The position numbers and the translations under genes were made by a program. Below the pieces are notes generated by a model. It was not told where the DNA came from, searched no databases, and saw only the letters and a list, made by a program, of their open reading frames with translations. From NCBI RefSeq assembly GCF_002105755.1, contig NZ_CP020821.1:2108001-2172000 (forward strand): 64,000 bases of DNA, written 5' to 3'. This DNA is from Mycobacterium colombiense CECT 3035 (GTDB lineage: Bacteria; Actinomycetota; Actinomycetes; Mycobacteriales; Mycobacteriaceae). This document shows, piece by piece, positions 26,566 to 60,569 of this stretch. Each line of letters begins with the position of its first letter. Positions within the stretch are counted from its first letter, which is position 1.

Positions 26566-26581
26566 GAGAACATAGCTTCTC
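26566..26581. promoter_or_regulatory. inverted-repeat operator, site 1
   Basis: GAGAAC-ATAG-CTTCTC (16 bp, flanked by T and A to give TGAGAA-N6-TTCTCA). It lies between the divergent dehydrogenase and crotonase genes. Same architecture as the sites at 50798 and 57042. Confidence 0.65.
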
Positions 26582-26627
26582 ATATAGAGATAACACCATT
26601 ACCGGATGCAGACGAAAGGGGCGAACG

Positions 26628-27536
26628 GTGGGCGATTACGAATTCTTGAAGTGGGAGACGTTCGACGAAGGCAGGATCGTTCGGATTTCGCTGAACCGCC
26701 CCGACCAGCGAAACGCCCAGAATCGGGGGATGCTGGTCGAACTCGATGACGCGTTTGCCCGCGCCGAGTCCGATGACACCGTCCGCGTCGTCGTGCTGGC
26801 CGGCGAGGGCCCGATGTTCTCGTCCGGCCACGACATCGGCTCCAAACAGGCGCGTGCCGAGTTCAGTCCGGGCGCCGGCCAGCACCCCACCGTGACCATC
26901 AACGGAGGCACGCGGGACGGCGCGGAGCGGACCATGCTGCAGGAATGGCACTACTTCTTTCAGAACAACCTGCGCTGGCGCAACCTACGCAAGATCACGA
27001 TCGCCCAGGTGCACGGCGACGTGTTCTCGGCAGGTCTCATGCTGATCTGGGCCTGTGACCTCATCGTGGGGAGCGAGGAGGTGCGCTTCGCCGATGTGGT
27101 GGGGACACGGCTGGGCATGTGCGGCATGGAATACTTCGGCCATCCCTGGGAATTCGGACCCCGCCGCACGAAGGAACTCATGCTCACCGGTGACGCGATC
27201 GGGATCGAGGAGGCCTACCGGCTCGGCATGGTCAGCAAGATCTTCACGCGCGACGAACTCGCGGAGCGCACGTTGGAGCTGGCGCGGCGCATCTCGAAGG
27301 TCCCCACGATGGCGGCCCTGCTCATCAAGGAGTCGGTAAACCAATCAGTGGACAACATGGGTTTTTACAATGCGCTGCAATCGTGTTTCGCACTGCACCA
27401 ATTGAATCACTCGCACTGGGCCCAGATCCGCGAGGACAAGCTCCCGACCGCGGGCGAAGAGCAAGGGGTGCCGAACTGGCGAACCGCTCCCCCTGTTGTG
27501 TTGGCGGTCAAGGATCAGGTCCGGTCCGGCGCCTAA
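26628..27536 (+). CDS. crotonase-family protein (atypical active site)
   Basis: A 302-residue enoyl-CoA hydratase/isomerase-superfamily protein. The fold is clear from ISLNRPDQRNAQN, the CoA-binding FSSGHDIG and the oxyanion-hole region VHGDVFSAGLMLIWACDLIV. The two glutamates of classical hydratases are absent: the GGGxEL position reads SAGLML and the PExxLG position reads FADVVGTRLG. A simple hydratase reaction is therefore doubtful, and isomerase, hydrolase or lyase chemistry is possible. GTG start. First gene of a rightward operon, followed 4 bases later by a PaaI-type thioesterase. An operator-like palindrome sits 47 bases upstream. Confidence 0.82.
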   Translation: MGDYEFLKWETFDEGRIVRISLNRPDQRNAQNRGMLVELDDAFARAESDDTVRVVVLAGEGPMFSSGHDIGSKQARAEFSPGAGQHPTVTINGGTRDGAERTMLQEWHYFFQNNLRWRNLRKITIAQVHGDVFSAGLMLIWACDLIVGSEEVRFADVVGTRLGMCGMEYFGHPWEFGPRRTKELMLTGDAIGIEEAYRLGMVSKIFTRDELAERTLELARRISKVPTMAALLIKESVNQSVDNMGFYNALQSCFALHQLNHSHWAQIREDKLPTAGEEQGVPNWRTAPPVVLAVKDQVRSGA

Positions 27537-27540
27537 CGTT

Positions 27541-27996
27541 GTGGCGGTGAACAATAACTCACCCGAGGCGCCACGCCCGATGAACGTCACCGTGCCGGGG
27601 CATCTCTTCGCGCAGCTGCCGTTCTACGACGTCGTCGATACCGATGATTCGGTGGTCGTCGACCTGCGCAACCGACCGGATCTGACGAACCTGCGCGGCG
27701 CGCTGCAGGGTGGACTCGTCGCCACGCTCATCGACATCGCCGCCGGGCGCCTTGCGGTCAAATACGCCGGCGATGGCGGCGGGGCGGGAACCGCGGACAT
27801 GTCAATCCACTTCCTGGCACCCATCGTCGATGGCCCCGCGCGCGCTACCGCCACGTTGGTGCGCGCGGGGAAGCGGATGATCGTTGTCGGCGTCGACGTC
27901 TTCGACGTTGGCCGAAACCGGCTCGCGGCCCGCGCCACGCTGAGCTTCGCGATCCTTGCACGCCGCAACCCTGTTCACGTTGCGGCGGCCCCGTAG
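27541..27996 (+). CDS. PaaI-family hotdog thioesterase
   Basis: A 151-residue single-hotdog protein. The segment LRGALQGGLVATLIDIAAGRLA is the central helix of PaaI/YdiI-type acyl-CoA thioesterases (HGG/QGG plus Asp), followed by the strands TADMSIHFLAPI and ATLVRAGKRMIVVGVDV. Such enzymes release CoA from dead-end or over-accumulated acyl-CoA intermediates. GTG 541 or 547 could start it; both follow the crotonase stop directly. The 3' end overlaps the convergent acyl-CoA dehydrogenase gene by 22 bases. Confidence 0.8.
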   Translation: MAVNNNSPEAPRPMNVTVPGHLFAQLPFYDVVDTDDSVVVDLRNRPDLTNLRGALQGGLVATLIDIAAGRLAVKYAGDGGGAGTADMSIHFLAPIVDGPARATATLVRAGKRMIVVGVDVFDVGRNRLAARATLSFAILARRNPVHVAAAP

Positions 27997-28994
27997 CGCG
28001 CATCGGCCACCCGGTCCAACGCGACGGCAGGTTCGCCGAAAACCATTGCCCATCCCCGGACCCGGCGATAGTAGAGCTGGATGTCGCCCTCCATGCCGAA
28101 CCCGTACCCGCCGTGGATGTGCAGGCTACGCCGCGTGGCATCGCGCGCCGTCTCATAGGCGAACGCGAACGCCATCGCGGCCAGCTCAGGCACGCGTTCG
28201 GGCTCATCGGCGAATGCGCACGCCGCCTTGAGCCCCAGCAGCCGCGCCCCGTCGGCGGCAGTGGCGCTGTCGGCCAGCGGGTGGGACACCGCTTGGAAGC
28301 TTCCGATCGGGGCTCCGAAGGCGTGCCGTTGTTTGGCGTAGTCGACACCGATCTCGACTGCCTTCTTGGCCGCACCCGCCAGCGCGGCAGCCGTGAGCAT
28401 GAGCCACAAGTCAAGAGCGCCGCAGAACAGATCGCGCGCCTGCGTCCCGGCGACGAGGACGATGGGCTCGTCCTCAAGGGAGATATCCGCCAGCGGCAAT
28501 GACGCGAGGTTTTCCACCGCGACGCGGTTCTTCCCGATGGGCACCACCAGCAATCGTCCGTCGGCAAGAGCGATCACATGGTCTGCCACCGCCCCGCCCG
28601 GAACCAGTGGCAACCGGCCATCGCGCACGGCGCGCGGCGCGAACGTGACCAGCTGGTCACCCGCCATGGCCGCGCTCAGTAACCCTGCGCCCGCCTCGCC
28701 GGAGTCGGCCAGCAGTCGCGCGGCAACCTGCGCCTCGATAACAGGCGCAGACGCGACCGCGCGACCGAACTGCTCGGCGATCAGCGCAAGTTCCAGTTCG
28801 GAGGCACCCCACCCACCGGCCGCCTCACCGACCGCCATCTCGACTGCACCTGTCTCCCGCAGTGCTTTCCACAACTTGTGATCGAAGCCCGACGGCTCGG
28901 CCGCCCGCACTCTCTCCGAGGTCGACTCACGCGCAAACAGCGCGGCGAAGGAATCCACCAACTGTCTCTGTTCGCCCGTCAGGCTCAGGTCCAC
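27975..28994 (-). CDS. acyl-CoA dehydrogenase, short alpha-type subunit
   Basis: A 339-residue FadE-like protein. The N-terminal helical domain (LTGEQRQLVDSFAALFARES) and the C-terminal four-helix domain (GVDYAKQRHAFGAPIGSFQAVSHPLAD, then HIHGGYGFGMEGDI) are clear; the middle beta domain is short. Proteins of this size in actinobacterial catabolic clusters usually form alpha2-beta2 complexes with a full-length partner. The partner here is probably the divergent gene at 29100. GTG at 28994 is chosen for the GGGACGG eight bases upstream. An operator-like repeat lies between the two divergent genes. Substrate is unknown. Confidence 0.85.
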   Translation of the reverse strand: MDLSLTGEQRQLVDSFAALFARESTSERVRAAEPSGFDHKLWKALRETGAVEMAVGEAAGGWGASELELALIAEQFGRAVASAPVIEAQVAARLLADSGEAGAGLLSAAMAGDQLVTFAPRAVRDGRLPLVPGGAVADHVIALADGRLLVVPIGKNRVAVENLASLPLADISLEDEPIVLVAGTQARDLFCGALDLWLMLTAAALAGAAKKAVEIGVDYAKQRHAFGAPIGSFQAVSHPLADSATAADGARLLGLKAACAFADEPERVPELAAMAFAFAYETARDATRRSLHIHGGYGFGMEGDIQLYYRRVRGWAMVFGEPAVALDRVADARYGAAAT

Positions 28995-29027
28995 GATTAC
29001 CGTCCCATCACGTGCGGATATGGTTAC

Positions 29028-29052
29028 TCTCAAAATTGAGATTATCATTATC
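29028..29052. promoter_or_regulatory. inverted repeats in divergent promoter, site 2
   Basis: Two overlapping repeats: TCTCAA-AA-TTGAGA (29028-29041) and GAGATT-ATC-ATTATC (29038-29052). The second resembles the N3-spaced operators at 36475 and 60555. The region lies between the two divergent acyl-CoA dehydrogenase genes. Confidence 0.5.
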
Positions 29053-29099
29053 GACCATGCCGCCCCCGGGGCCCGTACGACGACAGATTGGCCTGATAC

Positions 29100-30260
29100 A
29101 TGCATTTTCAGCTCGCCGCAGATACCGCGACCTACCGCGACGGCATCCGTGCTCACCTTCGGGACATACTCACTCCCGAATTCGAAGAGCGCATCTATCG
29201 CAGCGGCGTCGCGCATGACGACGGGTTCGCCAAAAGCCTGGTCGAGAAAGGCTATTTCGCTCCGGCCTGGCCCGTCGAGCTCGGTGGGCAGAACCGCAAC
29301 GTGTGGGACGATCAGGTCCTCAAAGAGGAACTCATGCGTTTTGACGCGCCGCTCTACCTGTCCGAGACAACCAGGATGGTGGCATCGATTATTCGCGCGG
29401 TCGGCACCCCGGCGCAAAAGGATCGAATTCTGGCCGGCGCGATCAGCGGCGACATCACCATCGCCCTTGGCTTCACGGAACCCGAGTGCGGGTCGGACGT
29501 CGCGGCTGCCGCCACCAGGGCCGTTCGGGACCGCGACGAGTGGGTGATCAACGGTTCCAAGATGTTCACCACCAACGGTCACATCGCCGACTTCATATTT
29601 CTACTCGCGCGCACGAGCCCGGATAAACCGAAACATCAGGGGCTCACGATGTTTCTGGTGCCGTGTGACTCCGATGGCTTTGCGGCACAGGCGGTCTGGA
29701 CACTTTCCGGGGAACGCACCAATATCACCTTCTACAGCGATGTCCGCGTCGGCGACGAGTGGCGGATTGGTGAAGTCGATGACGGCTGGCGGGTGCTCGG
29801 GCTGTCGTTGCAGGACGAGCACGCATCCGGCTGGGGCCCGCATCTGATCCGGTTGCTGGACCATGCCGAACACTGGGCAACCACCAGCCAGGAAGACGAC
29901 GGCTCGGCACCCATCGCGAAAACCGATGTGCGGCGCCGGCTGGCCCGCATCGCGATGGAGACCGAGGTGTCGATGCTGCTGCAGCGACGGTGCGTGTGGA
30001 TGTTCGAACAGGGCGACGTCCCGGTGGCCGAGGGACCGATGTCCAAGGTATTCAGCACCGAGGCGCTCGAACGGGCCAGCCAAGACGTGGTCGAACTCGT
30101 CGGCGCCGACGGCTTACGCAGCTACCTCGAACCGAGCGCTCCCGAACGCGGACGGTTCGACCACTCATTGCGGTTCTCGTTGGGCACCACGATCTATGCG
30201 GGTACCAGTGAGGTTCAGCGCACCATCATCGCCCAGCGCGGGCTCGGCCTACCCCGTTAG
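29100..30260 (+). CDS. acyl-CoA dehydrogenase, beta-type subunit
   Basis: A 386-residue FadE-like flavoprotein with the full domain set: N-terminal helices, the FAD/substrate loop ALGFTEPECGSDVAAA, WVINGSKMFTTNG, the FVR-like region, and the C-terminal EVQRTIIAQRGLGLPR. At the usual YEGT catalytic-base position the sequence is IYAGTSEVQR, so the classical glutamate is replaced by alanine. This is common in heteromeric or side-chain-specific dehydrogenases where another residue or subunit supplies the base. ATG at 29100. Divergent from the shorter subunit at 27975-28994, and its 3' end overlaps the convergent TetR gene by 12 bases. Confidence 0.87.
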   Translation: MHFQLAADTATYRDGIRAHLRDILTPEFEERIYRSGVAHDDGFAKSLVEKGYFAPAWPVELGGQNRNVWDDQVLKEELMRFDAPLYLSETTRMVASIIRAVGTPAQKDRILAGAISGDITIALGFTEPECGSDVAAAATRAVRDRDEWVINGSKMFTTNGHIADFIFLLARTSPDKPKHQGLTMFLVPCDSDGFAAQAVWTLSGERTNITFYSDVRVGDEWRIGEVDDGWRVLGLSLQDEHASGWGPHLIRLLDHAEHWATTSQEDDGSAPIAKTDVRRRLARIAMETEVSMLLQRRCVWMFEQGDVPVAEGPMSKVFSTEALERASQDVVELVGADGLRSYLEPSAPERGRFDHSLRFSLGTTIYAGTSEVQRTIIAQRGLGLPR

Positions 30261-31046
30261 TTTCTTTGGCCGTCCGCCCCGACCGGTGGATGCCGCGCGC
30301 GAGGCCGCCTTGCGCGCGGGCTTGGTCTTGACATCCGGGGCAGGCGGCGTGACGGCTTGCTTACACCACGCCCACAATTGGTCCTCGGTCAGCTTGGATC
30401 CCTTGCCGCCCAGATGAAAAACACCGATCTGAGCGAGCGCGGTGAGCGTCGTGTTCAGCAATGTGGTCAGCTGCGCGGGGGTCAGGTCGGTGCGTACCAG
30501 GCCGGCCCGAGCACACGAGGTGATGATCTTCGTCAGGAGCTTCAGATGCGGCTCCCACACCTTGGCGAAGTCGTCCGGCCGCTCGATCTCCAGGCTCAGG
30601 TTGTAGATCGTCATGACCCGGCCGCCGACAGCTTCCGACGACTCCGCGCGCGACAGCACCCCCCGGCAGAAGGCCTCGAGCTGCTCCATCGGACCGTCGG
30701 CCGCGGCGACATCCTGCCTGATGTCCTCGGTGAACTGACTTGTCACGTTCTCGTACAGCGCCAACATGAGTTCTTCTTTGCCCGCGAAATGTTGGTAGAA
30801 AGCGCGGAGACTCAGGTTCGACCTGTCGATGAGCGTCTGGATCGTGAAGTCGGCCTTGCCTGACTCCTCTACCAATTCGAGCGCGGTGGCCAAAAATCGC
30901 GAACTGCGGGCGAGGGCACGCGCTCGCGCGGTACTCAACCGCCGCTCGATCGTGCGTTGCTGCCACGTGCCGGGCAGCTCGACCTCGGTATCGACCAGTT
31001 CTAGGCCGGTTTCGGAGTCGGAACCGGCAGGCTTCTTTGTAGGCAT
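30249..31046 (-). CDS. TetR-family regulator with AT-hook-like tail
   Basis: A 265-residue regulator. The TetR helix-turn-helix spans about residues 45-95 (ALELVEESGKADFTIQTLIDRSNLSLRAFYQHF is split here only by normal helices), ending in AFYQHFAGKEEL. A ligand-binding helical domain follows to about 230. The C-terminus is unusual: Lys/Arg/Ala-rich and ending GRGGRPKKLTG, which resembles an AT-hook (core GRP flanked by basic residues). It is the only TetR gene in the catabolic island and is the best candidate for the repeated GAGAAT/ATTCTC operators. Ligands of such regulators are often acyl-CoA esters. Its own promoter region also contains an ATTCTC half-site (near 31114). Confidence 0.88.
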   Translation of the reverse strand: MPTKKPAGSDSETGLELVDTEVELPGTWQQRTIERRLSTARARALARSSRFLATALELVEESGKADFTIQTLIDRSNLSLRAFYQHFAGKEELMLALYENVTSQFTEDIRQDVAAADGPMEQLEAFCRGVLSRAESSEAVGGRVMTIYNLSLEIERPDDFAKVWEPHLKLLTKIITSCARAGLVRTDLTPAQLTTLLNTTLTALAQIGVFHLGGKGSKLTEDQLWAWCKQAVTPPAPDVKTKPARKAASRAASTGRGGRPKKLTG

Positions 31047-31242
31047 AATGCGCTAAGAATACGCGTCCGACATGGAAAATGTACGATCTACCTATACGTG
31101 TATGTTGATTCTCACTTCGCGTAAGTCACTGTTGCCGGCGCGGCGGCCTTTCCGTCAGGGCTCGGTTGGCGTCCCGCACTAGCGGGGCACGTGGCCGCCC
31201 GGAGGTGCCCGGGCACACGAGGCGGACCCGATGCGGTACCGT

Positions 31243-31258
31243 GGAAACGGTCATTCTC
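31243..31258. promoter_or_regulatory. operator-like repeat, site 3
   Basis: GGAAAC-GGTC-ATTCTC, with one perfect half-site (ATTCTC) and one degenerate half. It lies 59 bases before the start of the amidohydrolase gene at 31317. The left half is identical to that of the site at 47966. Confidence 0.45.
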
Positions 31259-31316
31259 ATTTCCGTCTCAGTGTGCCACGAATGAAGCCACGGGCCGTTC
31301 CCGAAGGAGTGCAGCG

Positions 31317-32504
31317 TTGAGCGCAGATATCCTAATCGTCTCGCCGGACGACCATCTGGTGGAGCCGGCCGATCTGTGGACCAGCCGGCTGCCGGAGCGC
31401 TATCGAGACATCGGGCCGCGGATAGTTCGCACCCGCGGGCGCATGGATCCGTCCGTCACGTCCGACGTCGCGTTTGTCGAGGATGACGAGGGCCGCGACG
31501 CGGACATCTGGCACTACGAGGACGCGGTTATCCCGATCCCCCTCATCAGTGCGGCCGCCGGCTACGAGATCGACGAACTCACCACCGACCCGATCACGTA
31601 CGACGAGATGCGGCCGGGCTGCTTCCGTCCGGCGGACCGGCTCGCGGACATGGATATCGCCGGCATCGAGGCGTCGGCCTGTTTCCCCAATACCCTCGTC
31701 CGTTTCTGCGGTCAACGCTTCCTGTACGGCAAGGACAAAGAGCTCGCGCAGCTCTGCGTCCAGGCCTACAACGACTTCCAGATCGACGAGTGGGGCGGAA
31801 GCTCGAACGGTCGGTTGATCCCGCTTGGCATCATCCCGCTCTGGGACGTCGAACTCGCCGTCAAAGAGGTCGAACGGGTGGCGGCCAAGGGCATGCATGC
31901 CGTGTGTTTCTCGGAGCTGCCCGCTCGTCTCGATCTGCCGTCCATTCACAGCGGCTATTGGGACCCGTTCTTCGCCGCATGCGAGCGAAACCAGGTCGGG
32001 ATCATGCTGCACATCGGGTCGAGTTCTTCACTCACCAAGTCCTCCCCCGACTCGCCGCACGTCGTGACGAGCGCACTGATGGCGGTCAATTGCACTATCG
32101 CGCTGGTCGACTGGCTGTTCTCCGGCAAGCTGATGCAATTTCCCGACCTCAAGCTCGCGTTCGCCGAGGCGCAAGCGGGTTGGATCCCCTACTACCTGCA
32201 GCGTGTCGACGAGGTCTGGGAGGACCGGCGGGCGTGGGGCGGGATCCATCCCCTGCTGACCGAACCGCCCAGCAGCCAGGTACCCGGCCGAGTGTGGTTT
32301 TCCACCTTCGGCGATCCGGTCGCCTTCCGCATCCTGGATCTCGTCGGTGAGGACCAGCTCATGTTCGAAACCGACTACCCGCACAACGACACGAACTGGC
32401 CGCACAGCACCGAGGTCGCCAATAAGGCGACGGAAGGCTTGGACGAGGCAACCAAGCGAAAGGTGCTGTCCACCAACGCGAAGAACTTCTTCGGGATGGC
32501 CTAG
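31317..32504 (+). CDS. amidohydrolase-2-family metal-dependent hydrolase/decarboxylase
   Basis: A 395-residue TIM-barrel protein of the ACMS-decarboxylase-like amidohydrolase_2 family. The first metal motif is DDHLVEP (DxH instead of HxH), a middle histidine is in IMLHIGSS, and the late metal/catalytic Asp is in MFETDYPHNDT. Family members cleave C-C or C-N bonds; in CoA-based catabolic islands they may hydrolyse or decarboxylate ring-derived intermediates. TTG at 31317 is supported by GAAGGAG about eight bases upstream. The gene is monocistronic, divergent from the TetR gene, and the most distant of the four amidohydrolases in the window. Confidence 0.82.
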   Translation: MSADILIVSPDDHLVEPADLWTSRLPERYRDIGPRIVRTRGRMDPSVTSDVAFVEDDEGRDADIWHYEDAVIPIPLISAAAGYEIDELTTDPITYDEMRPGCFRPADRLADMDIAGIEASACFPNTLVRFCGQRFLYGKDKELAQLCVQAYNDFQIDEWGGSSNGRLIPLGIIPLWDVELAVKEVERVAAKGMHAVCFSELPARLDLPSIHSGYWDPFFAACERNQVGIMLHIGSSSSLTKSSPDSPHVVTSALMAVNCTIALVDWLFSGKLMQFPDLKLAFAEAQAGWIPYYLQRVDEVWEDRRAWGGIHPLLTEPPSSQVPGRVWFSTFGDPVAFRILDLVGEDQLMFETDYPHNDTNWPHSTEVANKATEGLDEATKRKVLSTNAKNFFGMA

Positions 32505-32520
32505 CACGGTTTCCCAACCG

Positions 32521-33345: not shown

Positions 33346-33387
33346 CCGGTCAGGCCCTCCTCTCAGCGCATTCGGGAGCGATCGATT

Positions 33388-34467: not shown

Positions 34468-34495
34468 CTGCCCGGCACGCCTTTCGCGCCTGCAG

Positions 34496-35654: not shown

Positions 35655-36455
35655 TCATTCGGCACGCTCGTCATCGTGGTGGTTCTGCAGTTCGCGAAGC
35701 GCTTGCGCACGCGTTGTGGCCGCCTCGGTCATCATCCCGATGTCAGTGCCCGCCGAGATGAATCGCAAACCGACTCCCACGAATCGATTCAGCAGGTCAA
35801 CTGACTTTATTCCGGCGATGCCGAGCGCCACGCCGTGACTACGACAAGCCGCCGCGACCGATTCTACTGCATGGTGGAAATGGGCATTCTCATACTGCCC
35901 GTGGATGCCCATCGCGGCGGTCAGATCGCTCGGCCCGATGAGGATCATGTCGACACCATCGACCGAGGCGATGGAGTCGGCTGCCTCGACCGCCTCGGGA
36001 GTCTCCACCATCACCGCCACAACGGTGCGCCGTTCCAGCAACTCCACCAATTCCGGCGCTTCTCGCGGTGCGTATCCGCTGACCGCATTGGGGCCAGAGA
36101 TGGACCTGCCGCCGATCGGCGGAAAACGCGCGGCCTGAACTATCCCTTCTGCATCTTCCTTCGAATTAATATGTGGCACAATGATTCCTACAGCTCCCCC
36201 GTCCAACACCCTCGCGATGACGCTGGGATCGTGGGACGGCACCCGCACCAGGCCGGAAATTCCCGCGCCGAGCGCGCTCATACACAGCATCTGGGCGGTA
36301 TCGAGCGACGTGGATGTGTGCTCGAGATCGACGTACACGGCGTCGTAGCCGCATGCGGCCGCAACCGCGGGAATGTCGGGAGTGCGCGAGCTGAGCAGCG
36401 CCAGGCACAGCACTAGCGCCTCTCCGCGCAACGCGTCCCGCAACGCCTTTGTCAT
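35655..36455 (-). CDS. HpaI/HpcH-family class II aldolase
   Basis: A TIM-barrel aldolase of about 266 residues: YDAVYVDLEHTS (metal/base region), VRVPSHDP, GAVGIIVPHINSKEDA, MVETPEAVE (metal-binding Glu) and LIGPSDLTAAMG (metal-binding Asp). The family cleaves 4-hydroxy-2-oxo acids to pyruvate plus an aldehyde. ATG at 36455 is preferred over ATG 36509 because family members start just before TKALRDALRG and because an operator-like repeat (36475-36489) would otherwise fall inside the gene. First gene of the leftward run aldolase, dioxygenase, dehydrogenase, crotonase. Divergent from the thiolase-like gene. Confidence 0.85.
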   Translation of the reverse strand: MTKALRDALRGEALVLCLALLSSRTPDIPAVAAACGYDAVYVDLEHTSTSLDTAQMLCMSALGAGISGLVRVPSHDPSVIARVLDGGAVGIIVPHINSKEDAEGIVQAARFPPIGGRSISGPNAVSGYAPREAPELVELLERRTVVAVMVETPEAVEAADSIASVDGVDMILIGPSDLTAAMGIHGQYENAHFHHAVESVAAACRSHGVALGIAGIKSVDLLNRFVGVGLRFISAGTDIGMMTEAATTRAQALRELQNHHDDERAE

Positions 36456-36474: not shown

Positions 36475-36489
36475 GAGAATAACGTTTCC
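36475..36489. promoter_or_regulatory. operator-like repeat, site 4
   Basis: GAGAAT-AAC-GTTTCC, one perfect half-site and one degenerate half with 3-base spacing. It lies between the divergent aldolase and thiolase-like genes. A GATAAC box follows at about 36532. Confidence 0.45.
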
Positions 36490-36545
36490 ACAATATCGTC
36501 AACGGCCATTATCGGCCGCGGTCGCCGATGTGATAACGATTAGCT

Positions 36546-39703: not shown

Positions 39704-39719
39704 GCAAATGATCGCTCTC
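39704..39719. promoter_or_regulatory. weak operator-like repeat
   Basis: GCAAAT-GATC-GCTCTC, a degenerate match to the GAGAAT-N4-ATTCTC pattern, between the divergent CoA ligase and SDR genes. Weak on its own; listed because position and spacing agree with the other sites. Confidence 0.25.
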
Positions 39720-39745
39720 GATTAAGCAAATGTAACCTCTCCTGC

Positions 39746-41462: not shown

Positions 41463-41477
41463 GTTAACGGCGTTTCC
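41463..41477. promoter_or_regulatory. weak operator-like repeat
   Basis: GTTAAC-GGC-GTTTCC between the divergent crotonase and dehydratase genes. On the other strand it reads GGAAAC-GCC-GTTAAC, sharing the GGAAAC half with the sites at 31243 and 47966. Weak evidence alone. Confidence 0.25.
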
Positions 41478-41548
41478 GTTTTTCGGGTATCTTAATTTCC
41501 ACCTTGTCCGGGCTACTACACGGGCCGCCACAACGAGGAGGCAATCCG

Positions 41549-42799: not shown

Positions 42800-42803
42800 G
42801 CAC

Positions 42804-43610
42804 ATGAGTTACCCCAGTGTCCCTGGCCTTCTGGCCGAACAGCAGGGCCCGGTCCTGCGGCTGACCCTCGACCGCGCCGAACGCCGCAATGCCGTCAACG
42901 ACGCCATGCTCGACGCGATGATCGCCAATCTGGCCGACGCAGGCATCGACGAATCGGTGCGGGTGATCAGGATCGACGCCAACGGTCCGGACTTCTGCGC
43001 AGGCGCGGACCTGATCGCCAACAACGCGAAATCCGAACGGAAACCACGCGTGGGCAGCACGCAGCGCCGCCTACCGCACAAGGCTAACCGGCTGATTCCG
43101 TTGATGCTGGAGACGCAGGTGCCCATCGTCTCCGTGGTCCGCGGTTGGGCGACCGGGCTGGGCTTTCACCTCGCGCTGGCGTCAGACTTCTGCGTGGCCG
43201 CCGACGAGGCCCGGTTCTGGGAGCCCTTCATGGCCCGCGGCTTCACCCCGGACAGCGGCGCGGCCTGGTTGCTGCCACGGCTTATCGGACTGGTACGCAC
43301 CAGGCAACTGCTGATGCTGGGCAGGGAAATCACCGGAGCCGGCGCCGCCGAGTGGGGCATCATTCATGGCTCCTATGCCTCCGACGAATTGGCCTCGGTT
43401 GCAGGGCAACTCATCGAGCAACTGGCTCAAGCTCCCACGGTTTCGCTGGGGCTCACCAAGTGGCTGCTGCACAGCGGCAACGGCCTCGATCTTGACCGCC
43501 ATCTCCAGAATGAGGCGCTTGCACTCGAATTATCGAGTCGCAGTGACGATTTCAAGGAGGGCCTGGCGGCGTTCCGCGACAAGCGTGACGCGCAATTCTC
43601 GGGCCGTTGA
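42804..43610 (+). CDS. PaaG-like crotonase
   Basis: A 268-residue enoyl-CoA hydratase/isomerase-family protein: LTLDRAERRNAVND, CAGADLI, GWATGLGFHLALASD and the PaaG-type loop GFTPDSGAAWLLPRLIG with Asp. Related to the gene at 40623 but clearly diverged. Second gene of the six-gene operon; 17 bases separate it from the dehydrogenase gene. Double-bond isomerisation is more likely than hydration, by family. Confidence 0.85.
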   Translation: MSYPSVPGLLAEQQGPVLRLTLDRAERRNAVNDAMLDAMIANLADAGIDESVRVIRIDANGPDFCAGADLIANNAKSERKPRVGSTQRRLPHKANRLIPLMLETQVPIVSVVRGWATGLGFHLALASDFCVAADEARFWEPFMARGFTPDSGAAWLLPRLIGLVRTRQLLMLGREITGAGAAEWGIIHGSYASDELASVAGQLIEQLAQAPTVSLGLTKWLLHSGNGLDLDRHLQNEALALELSSRSDDFKEGLAAFRDKRDAQFSGR

Positions 43611-43627
43611 GGAATGCCGAAAAGACC

Positions 43628-44887: not shown

Positions 44888-45699
44888 CGGGCTATCAACG
44901 GGTGATCGTGACGAAAGGCGACGGGATCGGCTGGCTGATTCTCAACCGGCCCGACGCGGGCAACGCCTTCGACGCCCTGATGCTCGACGAACTCGAATCT
45001 GCTTGGGCCGACCTCGATTCCGACCCCGACGTCCGCGTCATCGTCAACGCCGCCAACGGCGGGGCGTTCTGCACCGGAATGGATGTAGTCCAGGTCGCGC
45101 GTGACAAGGAGGCTATGCGGCTTCACTCCCGCCGAACCAGAGACGCCGAGCTGAAGATCTCGTCCTGGCACTGCGACGTCTGGAAGCCGGTGATCGCCGC
45201 GGTCAATGGGGTGTGCGCCGGGGGCGGTCTGCATTTGGTGGCCGACGCCGACATCGTGATCGCGGCCGAGGGCGCGTCGTTCGTCGACCCCCACGTGTCG
45301 ATCGGCCAGGCAGTCGCCTACGAGGCCATCACGCTGCTGCGCAAGTCCCCGATGGAGGCCGTGCTTCGAATGACGCTGAGCGGCAGGAGTGAACGCCTCT
45401 CGGCTCGGCGCGCTCACCAGTTGGGGATTTTGTCGGAGGTCGTGCCGCCCGATCGACTTCGTGCAGCGGCGGGGCGCCTCGCGGCCGCGATCGCCATGAA
45501 TTCGCCTACCGCGATGCGCGCCACCAAGAAGGCCCTCTGGCGCTCCTTGGAAGTCGGAATGACGCAGGCCCGCAGCGATGCGGCCGCCGAGATCTGGCGG
45601 CTGCGCAACCACCCCGACCACGCCGAGGGCGTCCGGGCGTGGCGCGAGAAGCGCGTGCCGCAGTGGCAACCGCTGCCAGATGTCGCGGAGGTGTCATGA
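44884..45699 (+). CDS. crotonase-family protein, first of a tandem pair (H/H active-site variant)
   Basis: A 271-residue crotonase: ILNRPDAGNAFDAL, CTGMDVVQ, NGVCAGGGLHLVADADIVIA and SFVDPHVSIGQAVAYEAI. Both glutamate positions of classical hydratases are histidine (GGGLH and DPHVSIG). It is paralogous to the next gene, with which it shares a coupled ATGA junction. The changed active site suggests a non-hydratase reaction, for example hydrolytic ring or C-C cleavage as done by some crotonase-fold enzymes in steroid and benzoate catabolism; that is a hypothesis. Confidence 0.82.
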   Translation: MTGYQRVIVTKGDGIGWLILNRPDAGNAFDALMLDELESAWADLDSDPDVRVIVNAANGGAFCTGMDVVQVARDKEAMRLHSRRTRDAELKISSWHCDVWKPVIAAVNGVCAGGGLHLVADADIVIAAEGASFVDPHVSIGQAVAYEAITLLRKSPMEAVLRMTLSGRSERLSARRAHQLGILSEVVPPDRLRAAAGRLAAAIAMNSPTAMRATKKALWRSLEVGMTQARSDAAAEIWRLRNHPDHAEGVRAWREKRVPQWQPLPDVAEVS

Positions 45700-46496
45700 C
45701 ATACCAGAGGCTCATCGTCGAACGGCGCGGCCCGGTCGGATGGATCATCAACGATCGCCCAGATCGCCTCAACGCCTACGACGTCGTGATGCGGGAGGAA
45801 TTCCCGAGGGCCTGGGCGGAATTGAACACCGATCCCAACGTCCGCGTCATCGTGCACACCGGAAACGGGCGGGCCTTCCAGGTCGGCGCCGATGTCGAGG
45901 AACTCGATGGCGAGGCCGTGCTGCAGTTTCAGGAGACCATGCGCACGCTGGACCTGAAGCTGACGGCCTGGCACTGCAACGTCGGCAAGCCGGTCATCAC
46001 CGCCGTCAACGGGGTGTGCGCCGGCGGCGGGCTGCACTGGGTGGCCGACGCCGACATCGTCATCGCGTCGTCGGATGCGACCTTCGTCGATCCGCACGTG
46101 TCGATCGGACAGGTCAGCGCCCTGGAAACCATTGCGCTGATGCGCAAGATGCCGGCAGAGGCCGTGCTGCGAATGGCCTTGGTGGGTAGCCATGAACGCC
46201 TCAGCGCCCAGCGTGCATACCAGCTCGGCATGATCAGCCAGGTGGTCGATCCGCCCGATAGGCTGCGCGAGGTCGCCCAGGAGCTCGCCGAGAAGATCGC
46301 GCGCAATTCACCGGCCGCGATGCGCGCCACCAAGCGGGCGCTATGGGGCGCGCTCGAATACGGGCTGACGGATGCGTGCCGAGAAGGCGCGAAGCACCTG
46401 ACCTCGATGTGGGGGCACCCGGACCAGAACGAGGGACCGCTTGCCTTCGCGGACAAGCGAACTCCGAGTTGGGCTCCGCTGGAGGCCGATTCGTGA
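45696..46496 (+). CDS. crotonase-family protein, second of a tandem pair
   Basis: A 266-residue paralogue of the preceding gene. It keeps the same order of motifs: NDRPDRLNAYD, QVGADVEEL, NGVCAGGGLHWVADADIVIA and FVDPHVSIGQVSALETIAL. Glu-to-His changes are at the same two positions. The CoA-binding loop is FQVGAD instead of FCTGMD, so the substrates may differ. ATG overlaps the previous stop and its own stop overlaps the GTG of the CoA ligase, so translation of all three is coupled. The pair probably arose by tandem duplication. Confidence 0.82.
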   Translation: MTYQRLIVERRGPVGWIINDRPDRLNAYDVVMREEFPRAWAELNTDPNVRVIVHTGNGRAFQVGADVEELDGEAVLQFQETMRTLDLKLTAWHCNVGKPVITAVNGVCAGGGLHWVADADIVIASSDATFVDPHVSIGQVSALETIALMRKMPAEAVLRMALVGSHERLSAQRAYQLGMISQVVDPPDRLREVAQELAEKIARNSPAAMRATKRALWGALEYGLTDACREGAKHLTSMWGHPDQNEGPLAFADKRTPSWAPLEADS

Positions 46497-47944
46497 GTCT
46501 CGTCGACCTGCTGGACGGCCTGCCCGAGGTCGCCGTGCACACGCTCGATGTCGATATGTCGCGCGACGAGCTCAGGGCCAGCGCCGAACGGCTCGGGACA
46601 TTGCTTGCCGGATGCGGACTGGCTATCGGTCAGGTGGTCGCCGCGATGCTGCCCAACGACGCCACCACCGTCGCCGCGCTGTTCGGCACGTGGCGCGCCG
46701 GCGGCGTATACACACCACTGAACCCTAGGGCGGCAGATGCGGAGATCGTCAGCCAGCTCGAGACCCTGCATCCCGTCGCCATCGTCACGACTCCCGAACT
46801 CGCCGAACGCTTCACGACGTTCGGGTTGCCGGTACTGCGGGGCAAGGACGGGTCGTGGTCAACGACCGCCGGGGCTCGTAATCCCATCGATCCTCGGCAG
46901 TACGACGCTGATGTGGCCCTACTGCAGTTCACGTCAGGCACCACGGGTCCGCCAAAACCGGTGCCGCTTCGTCACACCACGGTGCTCGATCTGATCGACC
47001 GGCTGCTGACCAAACTCCGCGGCACGAAATCCGCCACGGACAAGCCGAAGCGCCCGCCGATGCCCAACCTGGTGCCGTTGTCGTTGTCGCTGTGGGCCGG
47101 CATCTATCAAGTGTTGTTCGCGTTCCGGGCCGGCTCGGGCGTGGTGCTGATGGACCGGTTCTCTCCGGCGGATTTCGCGGCGCTGGTCAAGCGCCACCAG
47201 CTTCGCTCCACGGTGCTGCCGCCCGCGGCGCTCACGATGGTTTTGCACGACGACTCGGTTACGGACCTCTCGCCGTTGAAGATCGTGCGGTCGATCACCG
47301 CTCCCCTGTCACCCGTTCAGGCGGTCCGGTTCCGGGACAGGTTCGGGGTCATCGTGCTGAACTCCTACGGCCAGACCGAACTTGGGGGTGAGGTGGTGGG
47401 CTGGTCTGCCGCCGATGCGCGCGAATGGGGCGAGACCAAATTGGGTTCGGTCGGCAGGCCGTTGCCCGGCATCGACGTCACGATCGCCGACGACGAGGTG
47501 ATGGTCCGCACGCCGACCACATCCGCTCGGAAGATCGATCCGGCCTTCTTGGACCGGCTCACCGACGACGGCTGGTTCCACACCGGCGACCTCGGCTGGT
47601 TTGACGACGACGGATTCCTGTGGCTCGACGGTCGAGTGTCGGACATGATCAATCGCGGTGGCCTCAAGGTGTTTCCCGGGACGGTGGAGGACGTGCTTTT
47701 GGCCGCCGACGGCGTGCGGGAAGCCGCCGTGGTCGGCGTTCCCGACGAGCGGCTCGGGGAGGTGCCGTGGGCATTCGTTGTCAGAGGCGACGAGTCGGTC
47801 TCCGAAGCCGGCCTCGTGTCATGGTGTCGAGATCGTCTGACCCCGTATCGGGTTCCGGTACGCATCGTGTTCGTCGAACAGCTGCCCCGCAACGATGTCG
47901 GCAAGGTGGTCAAACGCGACCTGGCAGCGCTCGCGGGCACCTGA
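46493..47944 (+). CDS. AMP-dependent acyl-CoA ligase (class I adenylate-forming)
   Basis: A 483-residue ligase, shorter than usual at the N-terminus but with all core motifs: LLQFTSGTTGPPKP, NSYGQTELGG, WFHTGDLGWFDDDGF, GRVSDMINRGGLKV and a C-terminal NDVGKVVKRDL with the catalytic Lys. GTG at 46493 overlaps the upstream crotonase stop (GTGA). Last gene of the six-gene operon; being co-translated with two unusual crotonases, it probably activates the same substrate they process later, or re-activates a released acid. Confidence 0.86.
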   Translation: MSLVDLLDGLPEVAVHTLDVDMSRDELRASAERLGTLLAGCGLAIGQVVAAMLPNDATTVAALFGTWRAGGVYTPLNPRAADAEIVSQLETLHPVAIVTTPELAERFTTFGLPVLRGKDGSWSTTAGARNPIDPRQYDADVALLQFTSGTTGPPKPVPLRHTTVLDLIDRLLTKLRGTKSATDKPKRPPMPNLVPLSLSLWAGIYQVLFAFRAGSGVVLMDRFSPADFAALVKRHQLRSTVLPPAALTMVLHDDSVTDLSPLKIVRSITAPLSPVQAVRFRDRFGVIVLNSYGQTELGGEVVGWSAADAREWGETKLGSVGRPLPGIDVTIADDEVMVRTPTTSARKIDPAFLDRLTDDGWFHTGDLGWFDDDGFLWLDGRVSDMINRGGLKVFPGTVEDVLLAADGVREAAVVGVPDERLGEVPWAFVVRGDESVSEAGLVSWCRDRLTPYRVPVRIVFVEQLPRNDVGKVVKRDLAALAGT

Positions 47945-47965: not shown

Positions 47966-47981
47966 GGAAACGACTGTTCTC
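47966..47981. promoter_or_regulatory. operator-like repeat, site 5
   Basis: GGAAAC-GACT-GTTCTC. It lies 56 bases before the first small membrane-protein gene. A further TGAGAG element follows at about 47987. Confidence 0.45.
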
Positions 47982-48037
47982 ATGATTGAGAGTGATGCTA
48001 ACGTCTGGGGAAAGGCGTTGCTTCGACCGGAGGGTCT

Positions 48038-50761: not shown

Positions 50762-50797
50762 GCCCGGTCGTCGACGGATACAACCGTTTGCTATCTT

Positions 50798-50813
50798 GAG
50801 AATCTACATTCTC
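50798..50813. promoter_or_regulatory. inverted-repeat operator, site 6
   Basis: GAGAAT-CTAC-ATTCTC, perfect 6-bp arms with 4-base spacer, 20-35 bases upstream of the amidohydrolase start. One of the two best examples of the repeated motif. Confidence 0.7.
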
Positions 50814-50832
50814 TCACATGCTGGAGGCGCGG

Positions 50833-52011
50833 GTGAACGACAACAAGGCAGTAGAAGTCTGGGACGCCGACAATCACATGTACGAGACCATCGACGCCTA
50901 CACCCGGTATCTGCCGGAGAAGTACTCCGAGGCACTGAAGTTCATCGATGTCAACGGCCGCAAGAAGCTGCAGATCTTGGGCACAGTCACCGAGTGCATC
51001 CCCAACCCGACATACGAGGTGATCCCTACCCCGGGCGCTTGGTCCGATTACTTCCGGGGCATAAACCCAGAGGGCAAGACATTGCGCGAACTCGCCGAAC
51101 CGATCCGCTGCCCCGATGAGTTCCGCCGGCCCGACCTACGCCTGGCCCTGATGGACCGGCAGGGCGTCTACGGTGCCGTGATGTTCCCGACTACAGCAGG
51201 CATGCTCGAGGAAAGGACCAAATCTGACACCGAGCTCACCCACGCGGTCACGCATGCGTTCAATCGTTGGTTACTCGACGACTGGACGTTCAACTACCAG
51301 GACCGAATCTTCCCCGTTCCGGCAATCTCGCTGAACGATCCCGTGCTGGGCGTCCAGGAACTCGAATGGTGCCTGAACAATGGCGCCCGGACGGTACTGA
51401 TCCGGCCCGCACCCGTTCCGCGCGAGGACGGCACGTCGCGGTCACCGGCGCTGCCGGAGTTCGACGATTTCTGGCGACTGGTCGAGAATTCGGGTATCTC
51501 GGTGCAGATGCACAACTCGGACTCCGGCTATGAGCGCTACGTCGACGACTGGGAGGAAGCTACGGAGTTCAACGGATTCGCGCTGAGCAAGCTACGGGGT
51601 TTCATCTACGAGGAGAGCCGAAACATCTTCGACACTCTTGCGGCGTTCATCGCGCACGGGGTCTTCGAGCGCTTCCCCGGGGTACGCATCGGCGTGGTCG
51701 AGAACGGCGGCTCGTGGGCACACCGCCTGTTGGATGTGTTCGACCGCGTATACCGCAAGAGGCCATACGACTTCAGCGAGCATCCCTGCGAAGTCTTCCG
51801 CAGACACGTGTGGATCAATCCGTTCCACGAGGAGGACATGTCGCACCTCATCGACATCCTGGGTGCGGATCGCGTGATGTTCGGCTCGGACTACCCGCAT
51901 CCCGAGGGGCTGGCCGAGCCCGCGGATTTCGTCAAGGAGCTCGAGGATCTTCCGGAGGACACCAGGGCGCGAGTGATGGGCGGCAACCTCAAGGAGCTCA
52001 TCGGTGTCTAG
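50833..52011 (+). CDS. amidohydrolase-2-family protein
   Basis: A 392-residue TIM-barrel metal hydrolase. The first motif is WDADNHMYE (DxH), the middle His in SVQMHNSDS, and the late motif FGSDYPHPEG. GTG at 50833 is preferred to ATG 50818 because GGAGG lies at 50823-50827 and the upstream ATG has no ribosome-binding site. It is a close paralogue of the gene at 60614 (shared DNHMYET, IPNPT and WTFNY blocks). Monocistronic, directly behind a perfect operator repeat. The reaction is unknown; the family includes decarboxylases and C-C hydrolases. Confidence 0.84.
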   Translation: MNDNKAVEVWDADNHMYETIDAYTRYLPEKYSEALKFIDVNGRKKLQILGTVTECIPNPTYEVIPTPGAWSDYFRGINPEGKTLRELAEPIRCPDEFRRPDLRLALMDRQGVYGAVMFPTTAGMLEERTKSDTELTHAVTHAFNRWLLDDWTFNYQDRIFPVPAISLNDPVLGVQELEWCLNNGARTVLIRPAPVPREDGTSRSPALPEFDDFWRLVENSGISVQMHNSDSGYERYVDDWEEATEFNGFALSKLRGFIYEESRNIFDTLAAFIAHGVFERFPGVRIGVVENGGSWAHRLLDVFDRVYRKRPYDFSEHPCEVFRRHVWINPFHEEDMSHLIDILGADRVMFGSDYPHPEGLAEPADFVKELEDLPEDTRARVMGGNLKELIGV

Positions 52012-55817: not shown

Positions 55818-55824
55818 GCCGCTG

Positions 55825-57021
55825 CTAACTCCGGGAGAGCAACTGGTCGGCGTTGTCGCGCATGATCCGTCGCTTGGCGGCGTCGTCGAGCGGGTCGAGC
55901 AGCTTGGCGAACTCGGCCGGCACGGCAAGGCCTTCGGCGTGCGGGTAGTCCGAGCCCATCACCAAACAGTCGTCGTATCCCAAGCCGGCGACTATCGCCG
56001 GTATGTCGTCCTCGGGGTAGGGCACGACACGGACGTGACGGCGGAAGATCGCCGACGGCCGCTCGGTCAGCTTCCCGCCGATCCACGGGCCGTTACGGCC
56101 CATACCGCGGCTCTTGTCCATGTGCCTGACGAAGAACGGCACCCATTCCGCTCCGTGCTCGGCGACGAGGACGTTCAGACCCGGGAAGCGGCCGAAGAGG
56201 TTGTCGAAGATGAGCGCCGACAACGTTTCCTCGATGGGCCGCTGGCCGTACACGTTCATCCACTGCCATGCCGACATGTGCCAGGAAGCGGGGTCGGAGT
56301 TTTGCCCCCAGGCCGGCGAGATCGCATTGAAGTACCAGAACGGCATGATGTGGAACACCAAGACGCAGCCGGCCTCCTGCAGGCGCGCGTAGATCGGGTC
56401 GAAGTACGGGTCGCCGGGCGATCGGCCGTAGGCCGGCCCAGTGGGCAGCAGCACGAACTTGGCGCCCTGGGCGATGATTGCCTCCGTTTCTGCGATCGCA
56501 GAATCCAAGTCGCGCAACGACATCAGCGCCGTGGCGTAGATCCGGTCCTCGTAGTTGAAGCCCCATTCCTCGTCAAACCATCGGTTGAACGACCGAAGAT
56601 TCGCATACAGCGCCGCTGTGTCGTCGACGTAGTGTTCGGCGGCCAGCGCCATTCCGCTTGGATAAATGACCATGCGGTCGATGTTCTGCTCGGCCATGAC
56701 GGCCAGGCGCGCGTTGCGCTCGATGAATTCCGGTTGCATAGGCTGCGGCTCGTAGGACTCCTCGGGGTTGCCCGATCCCATCTGCTTGAGCATCTCCTTG
56801 AGCGAGCCGGGCCGGTAGGCGACGTCGAGACCAAGCCCACCTTCGCTGTTGAAGGTGGCCACTCGGCGGCCCGCAAGGATCACCTCGACGCCGTCCGCCC
56901 CGCGCACCGTGGTGATCGCCCGGTCCTGAAACTCCTCCGGCAGATAACGGGTGAACGCATCCCGTGTCTCGTAGCAGTGGGTGTCGCAGTCAAAGATGCC
57001 GTAGTCGAGTTTCGTCGTCAC
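55825..57021 (-). CDS. amidohydrolase-2-family protein
   Basis: A 398-residue TIM-barrel metal hydrolase: first motif FDCDTHCYE (DxH), His in LVFHIMPFW, late motif VMGSDYPHAEG. It differs from the 50833/60614 pair by an aromatic-rich middle (FWYFNAISPAWGQ, then SAWQWMN), so the substrate pocket is probably different. GTG at 57021 is chosen for GAAGGAG upstream and family start. First gene of the leftward operon with the dehydrogenase pair and CoA ligase. A perfect operator repeat lies 21-36 bases upstream. Confidence 0.84.
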   Translation of the reverse strand: MTTKLDYGIFDCDTHCYETRDAFTRYLPEEFQDRAITTVRGADGVEVILAGRRVATFNSEGGLGLDVAYRPGSLKEMLKQMGSGNPEESYEPQPMQPEFIERNARLAVMAEQNIDRMVIYPSGMALAAEHYVDDTAALYANLRSFNRWFDEEWGFNYEDRIYATALMSLRDLDSAIAETEAIIAQGAKFVLLPTGPAYGRSPGDPYFDPIYARLQEAGCVLVFHIMPFWYFNAISPAWGQNSDPASWHMSAWQWMNVYGQRPIEETLSALIFDNLFGRFPGLNVLVAEHGAEWVPFFVRHMDKSRGMGRNGPWIGGKLTERPSAIFRRHVRVVPYPEDDIPAIVAGLGYDDCLVMGSDYPHAEGLAVPAEFAKLLDPLDDAAKRRIMRDNADQLLSRS

Positions 57022-57041
57022 CGCTTCGCTCCTTCGGGGGC

Positions 57042-57057
57042 GAGAATGCTTATTCTC
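57042..57057. promoter_or_regulatory. inverted-repeat operator, site 7
   Basis: GAGAAT-GCTT-ATTCTC, perfect 6-bp arms and 4-base spacer, the same as the site at 50798 outside the spacer. It lies just upstream of the leftward amidohydrolase operon and in the divergent gap before the dehydrogenase at 57364. Confidence 0.7.
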
Positions 57058-57363
57058 TATTTTCACAAAACATACTATCCTGATCCGGAAATGGCTATCC
57101 CGGTCGGGATAACCAGCTGCCCGCACGAGTGGCGCGCCGGCCCGGCCGCCACCGCACCAAGGAAGACATGAGCCCACCAAAACCGATGACGGACAATGCG
57201 ATCGGCTGGGCGCCCGTGACACTTCGAATCACCGCGCTCGGCAGGGCAACTCTCACAGCGGCCGAGATGCGCTCGAGTGCAATATCCGCGACCGGAATCT
57301 CCGGGGTCCGCTGCGCGTCCCCCGAAACCATGGACGGCCCCGAACCCACGTTGGAGGACGTGC
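57058..57363. other. long leader before the rightward dehydrogenase gene
   Basis: About 305 bases between the operator and the GTG at 57364. A short top-strand frame (57129-57377) runs through it but resembles nothing known. The first 60 bases are notably AT-rich (around 57058-57100), consistent with a promoter. Confidence 0.4.
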
Positions 57364-59378: not shown

Positions 59379-59385
59379 CGGTTCC

Positions 59386-59832: not shown

Positions 59833-59866
59833 CGGCCCTCCTCGTGGAAATTGCTTCACCGCACAC

Positions 59867-59882
59867 GATAACGTGTATTCTC
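59867..59882. promoter_or_regulatory. operator-like repeat overlapping a leaderless promoter, site 8
   Basis: GATAAC-GTGT-ATTCTC, immediately before the ATG at 59883. GATAAC at 59867-59872 is placed like a -10 element for a transcript beginning at the ATG, so the operator half-site would cover the transcription start. Confidence 0.5.
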
Positions 59883-60512
59883 ATGCCCCAACCCAGCCTC
59901 CGCGAACTGCTTGATCCCGCCACCACCGCACTCGTGACCCAGGAATGCCAAGGCGGGGTGATAGGCCCACAGGCCGGACTACCGCTGCTCGCCGACGAGG
60001 CGCGCCGCGAGGCCGTCCCCAACATCGCCACACTGCTCGATGCTGCCCGAGCGGCGGACGTCACCGTCGTGCACTGTCTGATCCAACGGCGTGCTGACGG
60101 CCGCGGCTCCAATACCAACGCACGGCTGTTCGCGGCGGGCAACTCCTTTACCGCCGACCTCACTCCGGGTAGCTCGGGCGCCTCGGTCCTGCCGGAGTTG
60201 GGTCCACGCGATACCGACCTCGTTCTGACCCGAACCCATGGCGTCGGCCCGATGTGCGGTACCGATCTCGATTCCGTGCTTCGTAATCTCGGCGTCAAGA
60301 CGATTGTCGGAGTTGGCGTTTCGGTCAACGTGGCGATCACGAATTTCGTCATGGACGCGGTCAACCGGGGCTATCAGTTCGTCTTACCGCGGGATGCGGT
60401 GAGTGGATACCCGCGTGAGTATGCCGATTCGATCATCGACAACACCCTGTCCCTGCTCGCCACGGTGACCCGGTCCAGCGCCGTCGTCGACGTGTGGAAT
60501 GGATTGAAGTAG
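59883..60512 (+). CDS. isochorismatase-like hydrolase lacking the catalytic Cys
   Basis: A 209-residue alpha/beta protein of the isochorismatase (cysteine hydrolase) fold. The first strand reads TALVTQECQGGV (Glu where Asp is usual), and the region of the nucleophile reads VGVSVNVAITNFVMDA, with Ala in the place of Cys. A cysteine-hydrolase reaction is therefore unlikely; true isochorismatases also lack the Cys, so vinyl-ether-type hydrolysis or a binding role remains possible. ATG at 59883 has no ribosome-binding site and directly follows the promoter/operator, which suggests a leaderless mRNA. Confidence 0.78.
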   Translation: MPQPSLRELLDPATTALVTQECQGGVIGPQAGLPLLADEARREAVPNIATLLDAARAADVTVVHCLIQRRADGRGSNTNARLFAAGNSFTADLTPGSSGASVLPELGPRDTDLVLTRTHGVGPMCGTDLDSVLRNLGVKTIVGVGVSVNVAITNFVMDAVNRGYQFVLPRDAVSGYPREYADSIIDNTLSLLATVTRSSAVVDVWNGLK

Positions 60513-60554
60513 AGCGCCGGGACGACCCCGATCTGGATGTTGCGCCCTCAGGAT

Positions 60555-60569
60555 GATAACGTCGTTCTC
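60555..60569. promoter_or_regulatory. operator-like repeat, site 9
   Basis: GATAAC-GTC-GTTCTC, 45-59 bases upstream of the amidohydrolase start at 60614. It has the GATAAC half of site 8 with a 3-base spacer as at 36475. Confidence 0.45.

Follow-up and report, generated by a model that had tools for sequence, protein, structure and literature searches.

The 64,000-nucleotide stretch of Mycobacterium colombiense CECT 3035 DNA analyzed here (the window; genome positions 2108001-2172000 of a single-contig genome of 5.58 Mb) carries much of a catabolic island in which a conserved 16-bp palindrome, GAGAAY-N4-RTTCTC, recurs at about eleven promoter regions, with several more beyond the window. Based on the sequence comparisons described below, we consider it very probable that these palindromes are operators of TetR1, a TetR-family protein encoded within the island, and that paired dimers of TetR1 block the catabolic operons together with tetR1 until an intermediate of the pathway releases them. 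One TetR1 dimer would bind the strong palindrome, and a second would occupy the weaker partner, which lies two helical turns along and faces the same side of the helix. Together, the two dimers would block transcription of the coenzyme A (CoA)-dependent catabolic operons and of tetR1 itself. The releasing intermediate may be a CoA thioester or an acid of polycyclic terpenoid- or steroid-like type. Coordinates are window positions throughout, unless marked as genome positions or as positions in a locus record (L).

A conserved palindrome at island promoters

The strict motif GAGAAY-N4-RTTCTC has two exact copies in the window and none in 100 shuffles. The repeated palindrome GAGAAT-N3/4-ATTCTC reported in the initial annotation is real. 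In the whole genome, with up to two mismatches allowed, 34 places were found versus 5 for a reversed control; the island accounts for 11 of the 34 and for all 3 perfect copies. A genome-wide search with the tighter form GAKAAY-N4-RTTMTC returned 7 places, every one of them in the island (88406 among them), and none for the control. A plain mismatch count over 124 kb (up to two mismatches, spacers of 3 and 4) gave 37 matches, 15 of which are intergenic; the same count with shuffled half-sites (25 draws, some repeated) gave 5 to 72 matches, 0 to 4 of them intergenic. The total therefore overlaps the shuffles, and the excess of the motif sits in intergenic DNA, not in the number of matches.

To score individual sites, we used a matrix trained on 106 unique sites from other genomes, with the own genome left out. 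At 14 bits or more, it found 9 intergenic sites in the 124 kb against 0.06 expected, and 4 sites labelled as coding against 0.53 expected. The training sites are largely orthologous to the sites found, and the matrix scan therefore tests conservation and enrichment jointly. Of the four coding labels, site 76975 lies within the over-extended N-terminus of a gene call, and site 83115 in the last codons of a 151-residue open reading frame without a Pfam match; the remaining two, 35876 and 88406, fall inside genes. As the initial annotation had noted for the promoters of the lipid locus, the motif is missing there: 42 kb on the lipid side hold no intergenic site of at least 8 bits and nothing of at least 12 bits, and the two coding matches at 10-11 bits both lie beyond the window. 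Conserved and operator-like, GAGAAY-N4-RTTCTC thus occurs far more often than expected by chance, as the shuffles, the reversed controls and the matrix expectations show.

The sites themselves (Table 1) largely bear out the initial list. Among three copies described there as perfect or near-perfect, those at 50798 and 57042 are perfect, and the one at 26566 differs from the strict form by two mismatches. The related copies at 29038, 31243, 36475, 47966, 59867 and 60555 score 16.7 to 23.9 bits. The two listed as weaker fared differently: 39704 is degenerate but conserved, and 41463, at 2.7 bits, has no support from the matrix, though the block of about 40 bp that holds both of its degenerate sites is conserved across the five genomes compared. 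The statement that all sites are intergenic holds for most of them. Site 36475 falls inside an automatic gene call whose first codons are unconserved, with stops in two relatives, and it is therefore placed upstream of the likely start; site 29038 is flanked by the divergent gene 29100 on one side and by the opening codons of 27975, the start of which is not fixed exactly, on the other. Beyond the window, the island has sites at 76975, 82901 and 83115, and two further ones are poorly conserved (66335 in 1 of 5 sequences, 91374 in 1 of 21). Position 88406, which lies within the 88340 gene and has no partner palindrome, was not counted as an operator. A place at genome position 4613738 (L004), with one mismatch, is probably due to chance; it lies beside a gene that we take, from its reading frame alone, to be purA-like.

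Most of the predicted operators are pairs of palindromes with centres 21-23.5 bp apart. When 12 to 33 bp on each side of a site were scanned and the best second site was taken, it fell at this centre-to-centre distance for 13 of the 16 own sites and for 58 of 79 in stretches from six species, as compared with 477 of 3160 (15.1%) after shuffling of the flanks; the binomial probability of 6e-31 ignores the non-independence of orthologous sites.

The spacer and the positions of the sites are kept in relatives. At 60 loci of TetR1 relatives, with at most one mismatch, the 4-bp spacer gave 109 matches, while each of the other spacers from 0 to 8 gave at most 9 and eleven scrambled half-sites at the 4-bp spacing gave 0 to 17. 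Four other genomes, compared over 80-95 kb each, largely share the gene content and order, with some rearrangement in genomes G085 and G125, and have sites at many of the same promoters. Counting sequences with a site of at least 14 bits upstream of a gene, the own sequence included, we found 55 of 56 for 26628, 59 of 63 for 31317, 9 of 9 for 50833 and 5 of 5 each for 55825, 59883 and 76544. Upstream of TetR1 the count is 54 of 64, and upstream of 38115 (site 39704) it is 27 of 43, though the latter site is degenerate here. Genes within operons mostly have no site (32521, 0 of 63), the exception being 34496 (10 of 60), owing to a site within the HpcH-type gene. The 3-bp form, at the same score, is kept at 29038 in 30 of 59 sequences, at 36475 in 15 of 57 and at 60555 in 4 of 5, and it also occurs near the 29038 and 36475 promoters in Williamsia; at 36475, the matrix prefers the 3-bp spacer here and the 4-bp spacer in other clades, and at 60555 the fifth genome has the 4-bp form. 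As a rule, then, the spacer is 4 bp long, and a few promoters have one of 3 bp.

Orthology of many loci in the comparison speaks for a functionless motif that is conserved only by common descent of the neighbouring DNA. Across these loci, however, the flanks have diverged while the palindrome stays, and the same half-sites recur at a separate second island and at separate TetR1 relatives, with perfect 3-bp copies in most of the mycobacterial genomes examined (both below); we find this explanation scarcely credible. Instead of being a repressor operator, the motif might serve TetR1 as an activator, or an alternative sigma factor as a promoter element. Both readings are improbable in view of a motif that is palindromic, serves divergent gaps, is centred 8 to 66 bp ahead of most target start codons and, at 59883, reaches the start codon.

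Several points weigh against the operator interpretation and the pairing. The good-scoring sites 35876 and 88406 fall within genes; a partner at 21-23.5 bp is missing for 31243, 66335 and 88406; and the partner sites score low, with a mean of -2.3 for the own sites versus -6.2 in shuffles. Site 35876, which was counted among the own sites, has a weak partner and lies inside a gene. As an observation in its own right, the sequence at 35876-35891 is an 18.4-bit match within the HpcH-type gene that is also present in related clusters, and may be either an in-gene operator or a coding coincidence.

TetR1 as the candidate regulator

We regard TetR1 as the likely regulator of the palindromes and the best candidate for this role. 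Besides its N-terminal TetR_N domain (Table 1), it has a C-terminal match to TetR_C_43 (SbtR-like) at 23.9 bits, below the cutoff of 27, and some orthologues are annotated with this domain. Its relatives are found in Mycobacterium and the genera split from it, in one Williamsia record and, distantly, in one Dietzia match. At the level of the order, TetR1 was found in 8 of 298 genomes, all from the same genus (out of 76). The Williamsia record (L076:2587-18691) has a shorter version of the cluster, a TetR1 of 67% identity and matching sites.

Within the genus, 58 of 248 genomes have TetR1 at E 1e-40. In three of these, the match is just a relative of 60-64% identity; we counted them as lacking TetR1, which leaves 55 genomes with and 193 without it. 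At least two perfect copies of GAGAAYN4RTTCTC were present in 53 of the 55 TetR1 genomes versus 10 of the 193 others (Fisher 3.7e-41). Here too there are points on the other side. Orthologous promoters, like genomes from a single genus, lack independence, so that the P values overstate the case; 2 of the 55 TetR1 genomes carry just one perfect copy; and the 10 genomes without TetR1 that have 2 to 4 copies are unexplained. Moreover, TetR1 travels with its cluster, and association alone cannot separate TetR1 from the other cluster genes. Our main answer to this objection comes from relatives with sites at other loci. Among eight loci of relatives with 58-64% identity to TetR1, seven have GAGAG[GT]-N3-RTTCTC or a close variant upstream, as compared with 0 of 32 control upstream regions and 6 of 3000 random windows, and at these seven the identity of matchable neighbours to island genes does not exceed 48%. 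The other locus tells against it: at L109, the only one of the eight with close homologues of island genes as neighbours (about 70% identical to two of them), there is no site. A structure model of TetR1 is poor (mean predicted local distance difference test score, pLDDT, 58.1) and is uninformative on ligand or pairing.

The island encodes another TetR protein, at 72527 (L016:8527-9165), and this protein could in principle be the regulator, with TetR1 a bystander. We hold this to be very unlikely. Six genomes with TetR1 and no orthologue of 72527 have a mean of 2.67 motif copies, while seven genomes with the reverse combination have 0.14 (orthologues of 72527 having been cut by hand at about 67% identity). 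In addition, only 1 of 5 genomes has the motif in the promoter of the 72527 operon. What is conserved in this promoter is another palindrome, CGGACA-N13-TGTCYG, at genome 2174340-2174364 (window 66340), which we recognized by eye in 5 of 5 genomes. With one mismatch, this sequence occurs genome-wide in 23 forward versus 16 control places, so it is not rare; resting on the conservation in all five genomes, it is a candidate operator of the TetR gene that follows this operon. The operon itself, at 66393-73165 (L016:2393-9165), is not a clear member of the TetR1 regulon, judging from the same comparison. It encodes a cytochrome P450, two acyl-CoA dehydrogenases, a ChsH-like protein and a lipid-transfer-type thiolase, and resembles the igr side-chain genes, though in a different gene order.

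Returning to TetR1, a single regulon linked to this protein is well supported by the sequence comparisons. The initial annotation had proposed one regulon that included four amidohydrolases, and indeed all four amidohydrolase promoters of the window, together with most catabolic operons between 24.8 and 62.3 kb, carry a site; none was found for genes 52097, 53848 and 62305. The stretch near 31075-31113, in front of TetR1, is partly conserved among TetR1 orthologues (35 of the 60 loci plus the own one aligned). Separately, at 31075-31120 a stretch resembling ATCAACATACACGTGTAGGTAGAT lies 5' of TetR1 and is conserved in many of the aligned orthologues; it is possibly a core promoter.

TetR1b and a second island

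A search with the 3-bp form GAKAAYN3RTTMTC returned 13 places in the genome and none for the control: one in the first island (60555), ten between genome positions 3221320 and 3332106, and two elsewhere. The latter are isolated matches outside both islands, at genome 3807189 (L124) and 5544858 (L125). The ten mark a second island (island 2; genome 3215001-3345000, L117-L123), which encodes a relative of TetR1, designated TetR1b. In the presumed recognition helix, TetR1 and TetR1b have a similar stretch, SNLSLRAFYQHF versus SRQSLRSFYLQF. Ten genes of island 2 that we scanned include those for amidohydrolase, P450, thiolase, acyl-CoA dehydrogenase, CoA-transferase, CoA-ligase and Rieske proteins. 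With at most one mismatch, the first island has 9 sites with the 4-bp and 2 with the 3-bp spacer, versus 11 with the 3-bp and 0 with the 4-bp spacer in island 2; all other spacers have at most one each. The island 2 sites also occur in pairs: 11 of 14 sites of at least 15 bits have a partner at 21-23.5 bp (null 13.2%), and 12 of the 13 that were placed against gene calls (61920 left out) are intergenic.

Of 248 mycobacterial genomes, 206 encode TetR1b (E 1e-60) and 205 contain the perfect 3-bp motif, for which controls are near zero. At least two perfect 3-bp copies occur in 200 of the 206 TetR1b genomes versus 1 of the 42 without it. The six TetR1b genomes with fewer than two copies, and genome G148, which has 8 copies and no TetR1b match, run counter to this. 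All 55 TetR1 genomes also have TetR1b, and the perfect 4-bp motif has a mean of 0.27 copies in the 151 genomes with TetR1b only, as compared with 3.42 in those with TetR1. On this sequence evidence, TetR1 would be a diverged relative of TetR1b, which appears to control island 2 by way of identical half-sites set 3 bp apart.

We therefore hypothesize, at roughly even chances, that one genome holds two paralogous TetR regulons separated mainly by one spacer base, with GAGAAT-N3-ATTCTC recognized by TetR1b and GAGAAY-N4-RTTCTC by TetR1, both with pairs two helical turns apart, and with the few 3-bp sites of the first island representing cross-talk. An alternative to control by TetR1 alone, in which both proteins act on the window and 29038, 36475 and 60555 are cross-regulated by TetR1b, seems possible but the less probable choice. 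The 3-bp form is kept at these promoters in several species, and the two proteins co-occur in all 55 TetR1 genomes, as this alternative would have it; however, the 4-bp form stands at 36475 and 60555 in other species, and one protein tolerating both spacings would explain the data equally well.

Island genes, known systems and significance

The island runs from about 24.8 kb to past the window end, reaching at least 83 kb in window coordinates. By Pfam content, it encodes acyl-CoA dehydrogenases, enoyl-CoA hydratases, CoA ligases, thiolase/ChsH2-like pairs and a TauD-type oxygenase; its P450s lie beyond the window. Of its five PF04909 amidohydrolase-family proteins, the window encodes four (Table 1).

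Table 1. Predicted operators and selected proteins of the two islands (window positions unless marked L)
Feature	Position	Strand	Context	Score or basis
GAGAAC-N4-CTTCTC with partner GATAAC-N3-ATTACC at +22.5	26566..26603		divergent gap 25420(-)/26628(+)	25.6 bits
Paired operator, primary 29038 (N3)	29017..29052		divergent acyl-CoA dehydrogenase genes 27975(-)/29100(+)	17.5 bits (N3)
Two weaker sites, 31075 and 31098, 23 bp apart	31075..31113		near TetR1 start	7.7 and 10.4 bits
Single site, no partner seen	31243..31258		TetR1/amidohydrolase divergent gap	18.1 bits
Paired operator, partner +23.5	36475..36513		HpcH-type operon(-)/thiolase gene 36546(+)	17.2 bits (N3)
Degenerate operator, partner +22	39704..39741		CoA ligase 38115(-)/SDR 39746(+)	8.9 bits
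Tentative; degenerate sites 41463 and 41485	41463..41500		40623(-)/operon 41549-47944(+)	2.7 and 2.6 bits
Paired operator, partner +21.5	47966..48002		upstream of 48040/48280(+)	16.7 bits
Paired operator with perfect palindrome 50798	50776..50813		amidohydrolase 50833(+)	24.3 bits
Paired operator with perfect palindrome 57042	57042..57079		amidohydrolase 55825(-)	24.1 bits
Operator (59867), weak partner -21.5	59846..59882		up to start codon of 59883(+); divergent from 59386(-)	23.9 bits
Paired operator (N3), partner +22.5	60555..60592		amidohydrolase 60614(+), MaoC 61804(+)	21.8 bits (N3)
TetR1, TetR-family protein, 265 aa, proposed palindrome binder	30249..31046	-		Pfam TetR_N PF00440, 31.5 bits (cutoff 24.0)
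PF04909 amidohydrolase-family protein	31317..32504	+	closest solved relatives DitZ, PtmU3	Pfam
PF04909 amidohydrolase-family protein	50833..52011	+		Pfam
PF04909 amidohydrolase-family protein	55825..57021	-		Pfam
PF04909 amidohydrolase-family protein	60614..61807	+		Pfam
TetR1b	L120:14960-15610		between 3-bp sites	31% identity to TetR1, E 4e-31

Against the PDB, the 31317 product matched DitZ best (180 bits), with PtmU3 at 106 bits; some His, Glu and Asp positions are common to them. PtmU3 has been described as a dinuclear monooxygenase of the amidohydrolase-related family (PMC10811679). Taken with a CYP125-like P450 and a lipid-transfer-type thiolase encoded outside the window, the latter recalling the igr operon, this likeness to DitZ and PtmU3 leads us to guess that the substrate may be terpenoid- or steroid-like.

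KstR and KstR2 are TetR repressors of mycobacterial sterol catabolism. As proposed for TetR1, they are repressors of the TetR type with palindromic operators over a large CoA-dependent catabolic island; they differ in recognizing AAC-N2-GTT, in contrast to AAY-N4-RTT here, mostly paired. Control of the island by either protein was rejected, with no exact match to the two consensus sequences in 124 kb (that of KstR as given in the initial annotation), in agreement with the initial statement that neither fits. At the protein level, a KstR model (NCBIfam KstR equivalog) does not match TetR1 at E 0.001, and TetR1b scores 21 bits against this equivalog, whose cutoff is 280. The TetR protein of Tn10 has tandem operators in one control region and thus also uses a neighbouring pair of palindromes, but at one divergent promoter pair, not across a regulon, and with another sequence and distance. 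DarR and QacR are described as placing two dimers on each operator region, as we propose for TetR1 (PMC10636190). In DarR, the palindromes overlap in a 20-bp operator (PMC10636190), whereas those of the island are adjacent, with about 22 bp between centres. Palindromic motifs have also been predicted at mycobacterial TetR genes, in a study with a table of 30 genes under M. tuberculosis numbers (PMC4482099). The main text of that study contains no GAGAA or ATTCTC string, and its logos are images that cannot be searched as strings. The initial annotation called the regulon undescribed; in open-access text, the exact motif strings occurred in no paper, and among the titles and opening lines of abstracts listed, none describes the cluster or the motif.

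TetR regulons of catabolic genes are a known kind; unusual here are the paired layout at most promoters and the sister regulators one spacer base apart. For a catabolic island of about 60 kb that has no substrate assigned, the analysis names a regulator, an operator and a set of genes that can be put to the test. It also draws attention to a second regulon, which some four fifths of the examined mycobacterial genomes share. Reporters driven by these operators would offer a direct way to screen for the substrate by induction. TetR1 and TetR1b, with the same half-site and a difference of one base in spacing, may represent a natural case for the insulation of duplicated regulators.

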